A stretch of DNA of 64,000 bases from Gloeocapsopsis sp. IPPAS B-1203 (GTDB lineage Bacteria > Cyanobacteriota > Cyanobacteriia > Cyanobacteriales > Chroococcidiopsidaceae): the NCBI RefSeq assembly GCF_002749975.1, contig NZ_PEIG01000002.1:186001-250000 (forward strand). Reading direction: 5' to 3'. Under the pieces are notes generated by a model. It searched no databases and had not been told where the DNA came from. It saw nothing but the letters and a program-made list of their open reading frames with translations. Position numbers and translations under genes: made by a program. Position 1 is the first letter of the stretch, and the number at the start of each line of letters is the position of its first letter. Below, piece by piece: positions 5,244 through 59,458 of this stretch.

Positions 5244-5272
5244 AGTAACACTCCAAGTGTAGTATAGATTTT

Positions 5273-5325
5273 GAGTTTTGAGTTTTGTTAGCGTAGCGGT
5301 GCCTTAGCACGTTTTGAGTTTTGAG
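5273..5325. repeat. TTTTGAG heptamer tract interrupted by a palindromic insert (copy 1)
   Basis: Tandem TTTTGAG units are split by GTTAGCGTAGCGG followed by the hairpin GTGC-CTTA-GCAC and then resume. A nearly identical arrangement is at 51734-51784. This copy lies in the clpR-clpP3 spacer. Confidence 0.8.
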
Positions 5326-5362
5326 CACTTAAAATTCAAAACTAACCACTAGCTACTAATTA

Positions 5363-7886: not shown

Positions 7887-7940
7887 GACGCCTAGCGACT
7901 AAAGTCGCAGCTAGACAAACAAAGTCCACCTCCGTGGAAC
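7887..7940. repeat. Dispersed two-hairpin repeat, copy 1
   Basis: First hairpin GCGACT-AA-AGTCGC (about 7895-7908), then a spacer, then AAAGTCCACCTCCGTGGA as a second hairpin. It lies between the convergent VOC and zinc-ribbon genes. Related copies are at 17650-17700 and 53288-53344. Confidence 0.85.
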
Positions 7941-7991
7941 AAGCAAAAATGTAGTCTAGATCCTTTGTGTCGAAATCACTTTGACTCCTGA

Positions 7992-17636: not shown

Positions 17637-17649
17637 GATTTGATCAAAT

Positions 17650-17700
17650 GCCTAGCGACTAAAGTCGCGGAATCAACAAAGTCCATCTTCGTGGACTAAA
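17650..17700. repeat. Dispersed two-hairpin repeat, copy 2
   Basis: GCGACT-AA-AGTCGC hairpin, then AAAGTCCATCTTCGTGGACTAAA hairpin, between convergent lepB and the HhH gene. Related to 7887-7940 and 53288-53344. Confidence 0.85.
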
Positions 17701-17733
17701 GAATAAGCTTTTTTGTGTTGAACTTTTGTATTA

Positions 17734-19353: not shown

Positions 19354-19432
19354 TTGGGAGTTTTGAGTTTTGAGTTTTGAATTATCAAGAATTTTCTTAA
19401 CTCAACACTCAACATTCATCACTCAAAACTCT
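19354..19432. repeat. TTTTGAG/ACTCAAAA heptamer repeats
   Basis: Repeated TTTTGAG units on one side and ACTCAACA/ACTCAAAA units on the other form an imperfect inverted arrangement between two convergent genes. Similar tracts are at 45975-46042 and 51730-51790. Confidence 0.6.
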
Positions 19433-21355
19433 TTAGTTACTGCTAGGGCGCTGAAACTGGGAAGGAGAACGGAAATACTCAACTCGTTGGTCTTTTAAAG
19501 CTTTTTGCATAAAGTCGCGCCATACGGGTGCAACAAAACCACCGCCAGTCGATCCTTTACCTAAGGGTCGATAGTTATCGTTTCCTACCCACACCGCAGT
19601 TGCTAACTGAGGTACGTAACCGACAAACCAAATGTCGCGTTCTGAGGATGTTGTTCCTGTTTTACCAGCTGCTTGGCGGTCGAGTTGTGCTGCTCGACCA
19701 GTACCATTGTTAATAACTCCTTGCATCACACTATTAAGTGAAGCTGCTGCCCAAGGATCTAATACAAGTTGGGGCTTAGGTGTGTTGTCGAGTAACACAT
19801 TGCCACTACTGTCACTCACACGGACAATGACTGTTGGTGGCGAGTGCCAACCATAATTAGCAAAAGTTGCATATGCACTAGCCATTTCTAATGGTGTGAC
19901 ACCGATTGCTCCTAGGGGTAATGAAATCACTGGTTCCATTGGACTATTAATTCCCAGAACCCGACAAATTTCAATCACTTTATTCAGTCCAACAGCCCGC
20001 CCAATTTTAATTGCCGGAATGTTTCGCGAAACTTCTAAGGCTCTGCGAATCGACATTGGTCCTTGAAAGGAGCTATCGTAGTTCTTAGGTACATAGCGTT
20101 GAGCACTACCATCGTTATAGCTAACTGGAGTATCTTCCACAATTGAGTTAGGAGTATACTTTCCAGAGGCAAATGCTGCGTAGTACACAAATGGCTTAAA
20201 TGCTGAGCCAGGTTGACGATGTGCTTGAATAGCACGGTTGAACTCACTTTTACGCGGATCGACACCACCAACTAAGGCTTTGACAAACTGAGTTCGCGGA
20301 TCGACAGCAACCAATGCCATTTGATCGCCATTGACTCCTTGGGCACGAATTCTTTGATGCCAAGTTGTTACGGTTTCCTCTGCCATCCGCTGCATATCAG
20401 CATCTACAGTAGTTTGGACGCGCATTCCGCCTTTAAGCACTGCATCACGCCCAAAGCGCTGGGCTAACTCTTGTGCAGCTGCATTTGTCACATAAGGCAT
20501 TGCACTACCTTGAAATGAACGAATGCGACCTAGGTTGATTTCTGCTTCACGCGCAGCGGCTTCTTCTTCAGGTGTAATCCAACCTAATTGCAGCATTCGA
20601 TTGAGGACAACTCCCTGACGTTGTTTTGCCCGTTCCATATTGTTAAACGGGCTGTATTGTTCTGGGGCTTGAATCATTCCTGCCATCATTGCTGATTCAG
20701 CCAAGTTGAGATTTGCTGCTGATTTATTAAAGTAAGTACGGGCTGCAGTTTGGACGCCGTAATTATTGTGACCCCAATAAACTTGGTTGAGGTACAACTC
20801 TAAAATTTCTTCTTTACTCAGAACTTGCTCAAGGCGTACTGCTAAGACAGCTTCTGCAACCTTGCGACTAAATTTCCGTTCTTGCGACAAGAAAATATTT
20901 CTGGCCAACTGCATTGAGACTGTAGAACCACCCTCCGCAACCGCACCGCGTTGCCAGTTAACAAGTAATGCACGACCAACACTGCCAATGTTGATGCCCT
21001 GATGATAATAAAAGTGGCTATCTTCAATCGCCATAACAGCGCGTTTGAGGTCTGGCGAGATGCGATCTAACGGGACAACTTCGCGGTTAGCTTCACCATG
21101 AATACTCGCAAGTAGCCTACCTTTGATGTCGTAAATATAAGAAGTTTCTGAGGGAAAATAGTTACGTAAAGCTCTCACATCCGGTAGATTGCGGAAACTG
21201 GTTGCTAGCCCAATCAATCCCCCAGCTACAACAGCGCTAGTCAGCATAACCGTTGCCAACAGTGTGCCGCCAGTTACCTGACCGACGTCTTTGACAAACT
21301 GATAACTGGGTGAAGAGCCTCTTTGTTGTTTTTTCTGAACAATACTAGAAGACAC
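19433..21355 (-). CDS. Class A penicillin-binding protein (1A family)
   Basis: 640 residues. N-terminal membrane anchor (about 28-54). A GT51 glycosyltransferase domain (about 90-260) with catalytic Glu in AIEDSHFYYHQG and GGSTVSMQLARN. A transpeptidase domain (about 320-620) with SxxK in GSAFKPF, SRN, and KTGT in AGKTGTTSSERD. It polymerises and crosslinks peptidoglycan in the periplasm. The bifunctional layout and size match cyanobacterial class A PBPs. The divergent tyrS lies 108 bp away. Confidence 0.94.
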   Translation of the reverse strand: MSSSIVQKKQQRGSSPSYQFVKDVGQVTGGTLLATVMLTSAVVAGGLIGLATSFRNLPDVRALRNYFPSETSYIYDIKGRLLASIHGEANREVVPLDRISPDLKRAVMAIEDSHFYYHQGINIGSVGRALLVNWQRGAVAEGGSTVSMQLARNIFLSQERKFSRKVAEAVLAVRLEQVLSKEEILELYLNQVYWGHNNYGVQTAARTYFNKSAANLNLAESAMMAGMIQAPEQYSPFNNMERAKQRQGVVLNRMLQLGWITPEEEAAAREAEINLGRIRSFQGSAMPYVTNAAAQELAQRFGRDAVLKGGMRVQTTVDADMQRMAEETVTTWHQRIRAQGVNGDQMALVAVDPRTQFVKALVGGVDPRKSEFNRAIQAHRQPGSAFKPFVYYAAFASGKYTPNSIVEDTPVSYNDGSAQRYVPKNYDSSFQGPMSIRRALEVSRNIPAIKIGRAVGLNKVIEICRVLGINSPMEPVISLPLGAIGVTPLEMASAYATFANYGWHSPPTVIVRVSDSSGNVLLDNTPKPQLVLDPWAAASLNSVMQGVINNGTGRAAQLDRQAAGKTGTTSSERDIWFVGYVPQLATAVWVGNDNYRPLGKGSTGGGFVAPVWRDFMQKALKDQRVEYFRSPSQFQRPSSN

Positions 21356-52167: not shown

Positions 52168-52342
52168 GATTATTACCAGTTGTGCTTGACATCGTTCAGT
52201 TCGGCAAGTCACTGGAATAACATCAAAAGTATTTATTGATGTGAGCAAGCGGACTTTGTCATTGTACACAAGTCCGCTTTAGTTCTTGTTATGCTTCTAA
52301 GTTTCCTTTCCAACGCTCAAAATTGCTACAACAAGTCAGAAG

Positions 52343-53236
52343 TTAGTTAGTGACAACATAGGAACCTCTTGTTAATTCATCGACTAGAGAAGGGGCTTGA
52401 GGCTGCCAATTTAATATTTGTTGGGCTTTCGCTCCGCTTACATGTTGATCTAACACAAGTGCATCGGCGAAAGCTCCCATTACAGTCCTTGCCTCATCTA
52501 GCTGCCAAGACTTTACCTGACCTGGAATTCCTGCTGCATAGCTGACGAGTTGTGCGATTTCACCTAATTGCATCACTTGATCGTCCGCAGCAATAAATAT
52601 TGAGCCTGATTCAGCTTCTAACGCAGCTACATAGTAATGGGCTAAATCATCGACATGAATTAACGTCCAGCGATTCTCGCCTGTGCCAACGTACTGCACA
52701 ACACCATACTGACGCGCTGCTTCTACCATCATGCCGATAATTCCGCCACCTCGACCATAAACTAATGCGGGTCGGATAACGATCGCCCGAATGTTGCGAT
52801 CGCGAGCATTCAACACCAGCGACTCCAGATGCGATCGCCAAGCAATCAATGGAGTTGGATCGAGGGGGCTATCTTCAGTTGCCACTTGATTACCTGTATT
52901 GCCCAACAGCCAAATCCCAGTTGTGTAGATAAAAGTTTTCCCTGTACCGCTCAAAGCATCTAAAATCGTTTCTACTGCCAACTGTTCAATCTGTGGCATT
53001 TCTGCATCATTAGTAGATGCAGCATGAATCACAGCATCAACTTGTTGAAGTGCTTCAGCCATGCTTGTAGGGTTGCGTAAGTCTCCGCGCAATGCTTGAA
53101 TATTGCGATCTAGTTTGTGAACTGCATCATCTGAACGCGCTAATCCTATCACTTGATGTCCAGAGGCTTGTAAAGCTTCTGCTACAGCACTGCCAATGTA
53201 TCCAGTTGCGCCTGTTACGAGAACTTTCATTGTCAT
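52343..53236 (-). CDS. NAD-dependent epimerase/SDR extended protein
   Basis: 297 residues. Rossmann motif KVLVTGATGYIGSAVAEAL at about 4-22, TTGIWLLG, and FIAADDQVMQLGEIAQLV. The extended-SDR fold of the NmrA/UDP-sugar epimerase type; its canonical Tyr-Lys pair is not obvious, so it could be an NAD(P)-sensor-type or atypical reductase. Upstream, a TTGGTTG-N2-CAACCAA operator (53257-53272) suggests control by the adjacent TetR gene. Confidence 0.85.
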   Translation of the reverse strand: MTMKVLVTGATGYIGSAVAEALQASGHQVIGLARSDDAVHKLDRNIQALRGDLRNPTSMAEALQQVDAVIHAASTNDAEMPQIEQLAVETILDALSGTGKTFIYTTGIWLLGNTGNQVATEDSPLDPTPLIAWRSHLESLVLNARDRNIRAIVIRPALVYGRGGGIIGMMVEAARQYGVVQYVGTGENRWTLIHVDDLAHYYVAALEAESGSIFIAADDQVMQLGEIAQLVSYAAGIPGQVKSWQLDEARTVMGAFADALVLDQHVSGAKAQQILNWQPQAPSLVDELTRGSYVVTN

Positions 53237-53287: not shown

Positions 53288-53344
53288 GACGCCCTCTGAC
53301 TAAAGTCGGAGCTATCCAAGCAAAGTGTACCTTCGTACACTAAA
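53288..53344. repeat. Dispersed two-hairpin repeat, copy 3
   Basis: Degraded first hairpin (CTGACTAAAGTCGG) and second hairpin GTGTAC-CTTC-GTACAC, whose bases differ from the GTCCAC/GTGGAC stem of the other copies yet still pair. Confidence 0.8.
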
Positions 53345-53359
53345 ACAAGATGTCTATTA

Positions 53360-53395
53360 GTAAGTCCACCTCCGTGGACTTTGTTTGTTTAGCTG
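53360..53395. repeat. Partial hairpin of the same repeat family
   Basis: AGTCCACCTCCGTGGACT (53363-53380) with TTTGTTTGT following, the second hairpin of the dispersed repeat alone. Confidence 0.7.
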
Positions 53396-57097: not shown

Positions 57098-57401
57098 ACT
57101 TATACCTGTTAATCAAAGTTAAATTATATATTCATCGTACCTAACTTCAGTTTTTGATAGGGGAATTTGGGCAAAAATAGCAGACTATAATATTTCAGGA
57201 ATCTGTTTCCAAATTGCATTTCCTTTATTACTTTTGATATAAAGTTGTATAAAATCTATTAAGGCTGTAGCACTTTCTCAGTTGAGTGAAGCATTGTTGG
57301 ATTTTACGAGTGTGGATGATTTACAAGCTTGGTTGGAGAAAAGATCGCACTGATGGTATTGCATTGCCTCTTTGTTTACTCGTTTACCGCCTCACCTTTC
57401 C
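57098..57401. other. Spacer with a DUF4351-like remnant
   Basis: About 300 bp. Positions 57267-57353 encode VALSQLSEALLDFTSVDDLQAWLEKRSH and a stop, the tail of a DUF4351-like (Rpn/transposase-associated) protein, repeated at 59310-59397. The rest is AT-rich. Confidence 0.6.
57267..57353 (+). pseudogene. DUF4351-like C-terminal remnant, copy 1
   Basis: EALLDFTSVDDLQAWL matches the LxxxLLDFxxxxDLxxWL end of DUF4351 proteins. Only the 3' end is present. A copy at 59310-59397 shares about 50 bp of nearly identical DNA. Confidence 0.6.
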
Positions 57402-59309: not shown

Positions 59310-59397
59310 ATTGTCTGCATTGGAATTGAGTGAGGCATTGTTGGATTTTACGAGTGTGGATGATTTACAAGCTTGGTTGGATGAAATATCGCACTGA
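59310..59397 (+). pseudogene. DUF4351-like C-terminal remnant, copy 2
   Basis: LLLSALELSEALLDFTSVDDLQAWLDEISH and stop. It shares GCATTGTTGGATTTTACGAG and following bases with 57283-57334. Confidence 0.6.
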
Positions 59398-59458
59398 TGA
59401 TGAGGTTGCATCGCCTTTTTGTCTACCTCTTTTCATATTTCCTCAACAGATTAGTCTT

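Follow-up and report, generated by a model that had tools for sequence, protein, structure and literature searches.

A REP-like double-hairpin dimer, widespread in an order of cyanobacteria, that in one clade probably travels in part as an IS5-type MITE

Introduction

A stretch of 64,000 nucleotides from Gloeocapsopsis sp. IPPAS B-1203 (contig NZ_PEIG01000002.1, positions 186,001 to 250,000; hereafter the window) carries at three places a short repeat with two hairpins, the stems of which differ between copies by paired changes. A first-pass annotation, made from the letters of the window, took these changes as a sign of selection for the folded form, as in a terminator or a small structured mobile element. 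The locus therefore raises the question of what kind of repeat this is, by what means it spreads and what its paired changes signify. We report that the 57-base two-hairpin unit is a family numbering hundreds in the host cyanobacterium and its relatives, usually arranged in mirror-image pairs, and we consider it quite probable that in this clade many of the resulting double-hairpin dimers lie inside an IS5-type MITE of about 165 bp that is moved in trans by a two-ORF transposase. A REP-like cyanobacterial palindrome would thereby be linked to a specific transposition system, of which the ends, the duplication and an autonomous partner have been located, and the spread of such repeats without a RAYT would gain an explanation open to testing.

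Two-hairpin units in the window

The two-hairpin layout can be read directly in the sequence at all three window sites, and a covariance model built from 25 copies recovered four units, each at E < 1e-10 (Table 1), with the next full-length match at E = 0.35. The hairpin-1 motif GCGACTNNAGTCGC, with up to two mismatches allowed, occurs seven times in the window against 1.3 expected, a count reached by none of 100 shuffles, and no Rfam family matched in the window at the gathering score. The repeat described in the first-pass annotation is thus real, and the double change that it had reported for the inner stem of the third copy, from GTCCAC/GTGGAC to GTGTAC/GTACAC, is as claimed. Its account of the first stem, GCGACT-AA-AGTCGC in every copy, stands for unit 1 but not for the third copy, which has CTCTGAC/GTCGGAG instead. 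What it had called a half copy at 53360-53395 proves to be a complete unit in inverse orientation, additionally supported by an opposite-strand hairpin match at 53362-53380, which makes the third site a head-to-head dimer.

Table 1. Repeat units and associated features located in the window.
Feature	Position in window	Strand	Basis and remarks
Unit 1	7888-7944	+	Covariance model, E 7.5e-19; two hairpins; single in this genome
Unit 1, outer hairpin GCGACT-AA-AGTCGC	7895-7908	+	Motif scan and fold
Unit 1, inner hairpin AGTCCAC-CTCC-GTGGAA	7923-7939	+	Sequence reading and fold; outermost pairs broken
Unit 2	17648-17701	+	Covariance model, E 8.4e-17
Empty target site	52341-52350	.	Comparison with a relative; G017 has a 209-bp end-bounded element here, the own genome none
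Unit 3a, left half of head-to-head dimer, inner stem GTGTAC/GTACAC	53289-53345	+	Covariance model, E 9.5e-21; fold
Unit 3b, right half of dimer, inner stem GTCCAC/GTGGAC, inverted loop	53359-53414	-	Covariance model, E 1.2e-11
Terminator-like inner hairpin, then TGTTTGTTTA	53362-53391	+	Pattern scan

Orthologous sites in other genomes add to this picture. In two genomes belonging to another genus the site of unit 1 holds a full, intact dimer, its outer stem having GCGAAT with a matching partner arm as against GCGACT/AGTCGC here. At the site of unit 2, the nearest relative (G017) has a partner half and an inner loop inverted relative to that of the own genome, and in the relative G119 the unit is absent, but not as a precise excision.

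Copy number and distribution of the family

Each unit comprises an outer hairpin, the conserved linker GCTANACAAACAAA and an inner hairpin with a CTNC loop. The covariance-model search reported at least 157 units in the 5.9-Mb draft of the own genome, and the 150 of these that were tabulated form 122 clusters: 25 +- pairs, no -+ pair, two ++, one -- and 94 single units, a share of singles that is overestimated because scoring covered only the best 150 candidates. A finer scan of selected loci revealed extra partner units beside apparent singles, and the most frequent spacing between paired units is a gap of 13 nt. The main inner stems in the own genome, GTCCAC (56) and GTGTAC (46), represent two half-unit lineages of the dimer, for which the predicted fold has the two linkers paired with each other (-39.0 kcal/mol on the + strand, z -4.7).

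Of 148 genomes in the order, 77 gave at least one unit in a covariance-model search, in which the number of units counted for any one genome was limited to about 38. The linker, GCTAYACAAACAAA in other genomes, is nearly constant there and both stems are variable; linker and CTNC loop are conserved across genera. With a single 57-nt unit as query, BLAST matched one plasmid when E values up to 1 were admitted, none at 1e-5, and nothing in E. coli; since it returns almost nothing, BLAST is too blunt for a single unit. Carriage by phages or plasmids was considered and rejected, there being no phage hit and just one plasmid hit (Gloeocapsa sp. PCC 7428), and two patterns searched as exact matches in viral contigs were not found.

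At three loci of the own genome (C6:190364, C4:402618 and C10:225157) units contain nested inserts: the spacer holds the palindrome GGGTAAGGCATGCCTTACCC, and further inserts resemble CCTGCGGGAAGCCGCTACGCGTCTAC; we take these to be reminiscent of cyanobacterial SDRs.

Terminal repeats, target duplications and an autonomous relative

Many dimers are enclosed by a 17-bp terminal inverted repeat, AGACCTCCTGCATGAAT, in inverse orientation. An 18-mer end, with up to two mismatches, occurs at 74 places as against none for the reversed control, and both ends were found at 22 of 120 own clusters, one at 30 and none at 68, so that 52 have at least one. End-bounded elements are typically 164-168 bp long and consist of a GTGTAC-type half and a GTCCAC-type half, and copies that are 94-98% identical occur at unrelated sites. 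Across all loci analysed, an exact 3-bp target duplication flanks 59 of 76 end-bounded elements (flank shuffles gave a mean of 13.6 and a maximum of 23) and is absent from the other 17; its sequence is ANT in 50 of the 59, and other duplication lengths are rare (ten at 1 bp, four at 2 bp, none at 4-7 bp). A 3-bp ANT duplication is typical of the ISL2 group of the IS5 family. The TA target duplication of mariner/IS630-like elements is excluded, as both the flank statistics and the empty sites give 3 bp.

Empty sites were sought by searching the joined flanks of eight elements in four genomes. Those of L248 were uninterrupted in the relatives G119 and G102, where a single ATT remains, and, in a more divergent form, also in the own genome; L250 and L257 had uninterrupted joint matches in G119 and L251 in the own genome. 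The site of L249 is filled in the own genome as well, and for L262 none of the four genomes gave a spanning match. We left out of the count L247 (right end misassigned), L259 (insert within another unit) and C9:23157 in G119, where the deletion exceeds the element. The element that occupies the empty window site in G017 (Table 1) has no simple 3-bp duplication. Through the empty sites in relatives, the family thus displays the insertion polymorphism of a MITE.

Some of the 76 elements have unrelated bodies, so that several types of MITE share a single set of ends. The same ends surround an unrelated body, TGTCATTCTGAACGAA..., at L149 (C3:351426), L152 (C5:180249) and L161 (C1:27839). Leptolyngbya sp. 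FACHB-8, far from the host genus, has MITEs of 78-80 bp that show these ends as well as 3-bp duplications (L297, L315, L336 and others), and a 521-bp element with the same ends in G102 (L225) has its half-units split by a long inserted sequence.

Seven full-size elements of 903-960 bp with the same ends as the MITE were found in relatives and named genomes: three among 77 named-genome stretches with an exact 18-mer end, with end pairs 918-944 bp apart, and four more, of 903-960 bp, in relatives. Five of the seven are flanked by an exact 3-bp duplication. In the copy from Pseudanabaenaceae LEGE 13415, two overlapping ORFs match HTH_Tnp_4 and DDE_Tnp_4 (PF13613, PF13359) above cut-off; against the IS5 model NF033581 the halves, scored separately, reach 66.3 and 115.8 bits, the cut-off of 140 being one for the whole protein. 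The own genome contains a degraded IS copy adjoining one terminal end (C12:143633-143946) and one open ORF with no terminal repeat at the examined locus (C24:61605-62000), and no intact IS with the ends of the MITE was seen in it.

The earlier suggestion of a small structured mobile element accordingly holds for the family, given its terminal repeats, 3-bp duplications, empty sites and autonomous relative; around the four window units themselves no recognisable terminal repeats were found, and these end-less copies are probably decayed or separate family members. We infer that an IS5-type enzyme moves the MITE. In the mechanism that we propose, the dimer would sit in the element of about 165 bp, between its inverted ends and the ANT duplication, the two-ORF transposase encoded by the full-size element in relatives would act on it in trans, and the hairpin with its U-rich linker, by serving as a bidirectional terminator or 3'-end stabiliser, would make insertion behind genes tolerable. 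The terminal-repeat analysis took in a minority of the 77 unit-bearing genomes, so the units may also spread without the IS5-type MITE or predate it.

Stem covariation and its causes

A covariation check of genomic copies revealed covariation in excess of the shuffled background in both stems. Both sides of a pair had changed in 46 cells among 25 own copies (17.4 in shuffles; MAFFT alignment), in 90 cells among 45 copies taken at 29 loci in other genomes, two of them belonging to the host's genus (21.6 in shuffles), and in 307 cells among 141 distinct own copies (108.8 in shuffles), the two larger alignments having been fitted to the covariance model and hence favouring it. The covariation score was attained by none of 500 shuffles in any of the three alignments, and the signal is well above both shuffles and slid structures, other genera included. 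In the 45 foreign copies the inner helix is 100% paired; the 41 inner hairpins that could be parsed have 12 arm types, and 40 are perfect in six of six pairs.

The first-pass reading of paired change as selection for the fold is therefore upheld as far as the excess over shuffles and slid structures goes, but the lineage split and the inverted loops weaken it. Because GTCCAC and GTGTAC stems mark the two lineages of dimer halves, double-changed cells within the own genome are not independent events, and most inner-stem covariation in this genome is the difference between these two old lineages. Moreover, of 130 inner hairpins parsed in the own genome, 6 have their loop inverted, reading GGAG or GAAG in place of CTNC. 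Such loops suggest that paired changes may also come from palindrome-dependent template switching or from exchange between copies. We hold it quite possible, if short of probable, that the paired changes are mainly mutational, quasi-palindrome template switching and copy exchange restoring the stems without selection. Beyond the inverted loops, this reading draws on a loop flip between L159 and L114, which are 94.6% identical, and another at the orthologous site 17648, and on close copies in which a clustered change has turned TGAAG of the outer hairpin into CCCTT. Against it, U-G wobble intermediates exist, as between L114 and L159, which are expected of stepwise change and argue for some of it, and the CTNC loop and linker remain conserved between genera. 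Template switching or exchange explains the loop flips and the stem swap at site 7888 as well as selection does. Stem covariation in dispersed palindromes may thus stem from such processes and is by itself no proof of selection on the fold.

Position relative to genes

Each of the three window sites is no more than 12 bp from the 3' end of an ORF (taken as a plain open frame of at least about 100 codons), and two sit between convergent ORFs. Genome-wide mapping relative to convergent genes, which had been put forward as a check, gave the same tendency: 41 of 105 classified clusters are in convergent gaps, compared with 20 of the 111 junctions that lack a unit (Fisher p 0.0008). The orientation set used 113 of the 122 clusters, reduced to 105 by removal of five inside ORFs and three without two flanks; the control comprised all unit-free junctions in the window and in selected 9-10 kb loci, and an earlier control (gaps of at least 100 bp, 1 of 29 convergent) was discarded as biased. 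The median distance to gene 3' ends is 33 nt, and 80 of 136 distances are within 60 nt; for 5' ends the corresponding figure is 17 of 74.

In the outward direction, sequence resembling TTTGTTTG comes after every inner hairpin, and a pattern scan finds the intrinsic-terminator arrangement of a GC-rich hairpin and a T-rich tract at 53362-53381 plus tail. Judged from sequence and position, hairpin and U-rich linker could plausibly form a bidirectional terminator or 3'-end stabiliser; purifying selection against insertions in promoters would give the same 3'-end bias.

Alternative origins and related repeats

That the units are simple, non-mobile transcription terminators, multiplied with genes or arisen repeatedly, would account for their proximity to gene 3' ends and for the terminator-like score of the inner hairpin with its TGTTTGTTTA tail, but we regard it as very unlikely, because members with terminal repeats contradict it, through those repeats, their target duplications, the sites found empty in relatives and the near-identical copies at unrelated places; it may still apply to end-less members. 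A less improbable but still doubtful view makes the unit a GTAG-tagged REP or REPIN, moved by a RAYT (Y1 HUH transposase) acting on single-stranded hairpins, with the terminal repeats as a merely secondary host. Its head-to-head dimers (all 25 mirror-image pairs being +-), covarying stems and conserved unpaired linker are REP-like, 24 of 45 units of other genomes have GTAG just before the outer hairpin, and Di Nocera 2013 (PMC3733652), in its descriptions of the cyanobacterial REP families GTAG-12, -15 and -16, offers a close precedent in the GTAG-15 dimers of A. variabilis, which lie within long palindromes. Yet GTAG is found in only 41 of 148 own units, compared with more than 90% in most of the families described there (PMC3733652). 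The own genome has a single Y1 transposase gene (PF01797). Read by eye, its surroundings show no unit within 1.5 kb and the gene appears to be an ordinary IS605-type locus, so the search of that genome for a RAYT flanked by units found none. The unit is therefore REP-like in build yet here lacks both a regular GTAG tag and a RAYT in the genome.

It is also conceivable, though rather unlikely, that the dimer is a distinct order-wide element, folded into a cloverleaf-like shape by pairing of its two linkers, which is maintained because it acts as a portable bidirectional terminator or protects 3' ends, and which unrelated transposon ends have repeatedly captured, AGACCTCC here and TATAGGA palindromes in A. 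variabilis, where the description in PMC3733652 has such palindromes surrounding the GTAG-15 dimers. Our preferred reading remains that of a REP-like double-hairpin dimer, widespread in its order, part of which travels in this clade as an IS5-type MITE. As described in PMC3733652, the GTAG REPs of Anabaena, Nostoc and Cyanothece resemble it in being palindromic, dimeric and biased to gene ends; compared by build, tag and transposase, it differs from those descriptions in having two hairpins and a conserved linker per unit, a mostly degenerate GTAG and no RAYT in this genome.

With IS5-family insertion sequences and MITEs (two-ORF, NF033581) the element shares the 17-bp ends, the 3-bp duplication and, in its full-size form, the HTH_Tnp_4 and DDE_Tnp_4 halves; it differs in that its body is a double-hairpin dimer and not a deleted IS, and in that other bodies with the same ends exist. 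Nezha MITEs and SDR elements are, like this unit, short, dispersed and structured cyanobacterial repeats, and their sizes and ends appear to differ from those seen here. The type II MITEs of Anabaena sp. 90 are likewise structured, mostly intergenic and provided with several inverted repeats, but in the account given in PMC3542288 no IS with matching ends was found for them, whereas here one exists.

Two further repeats were noted in the window. A 74-nt direct repeat, 95% identical and possibly coding, occupies 57282-57355 and 59326-59399, and a different dispersed repeat of TTTTGAGTTTTGAG type, at 5256-5350 and 19358-19441, has dozens of 47-78-bp matches in relatives.
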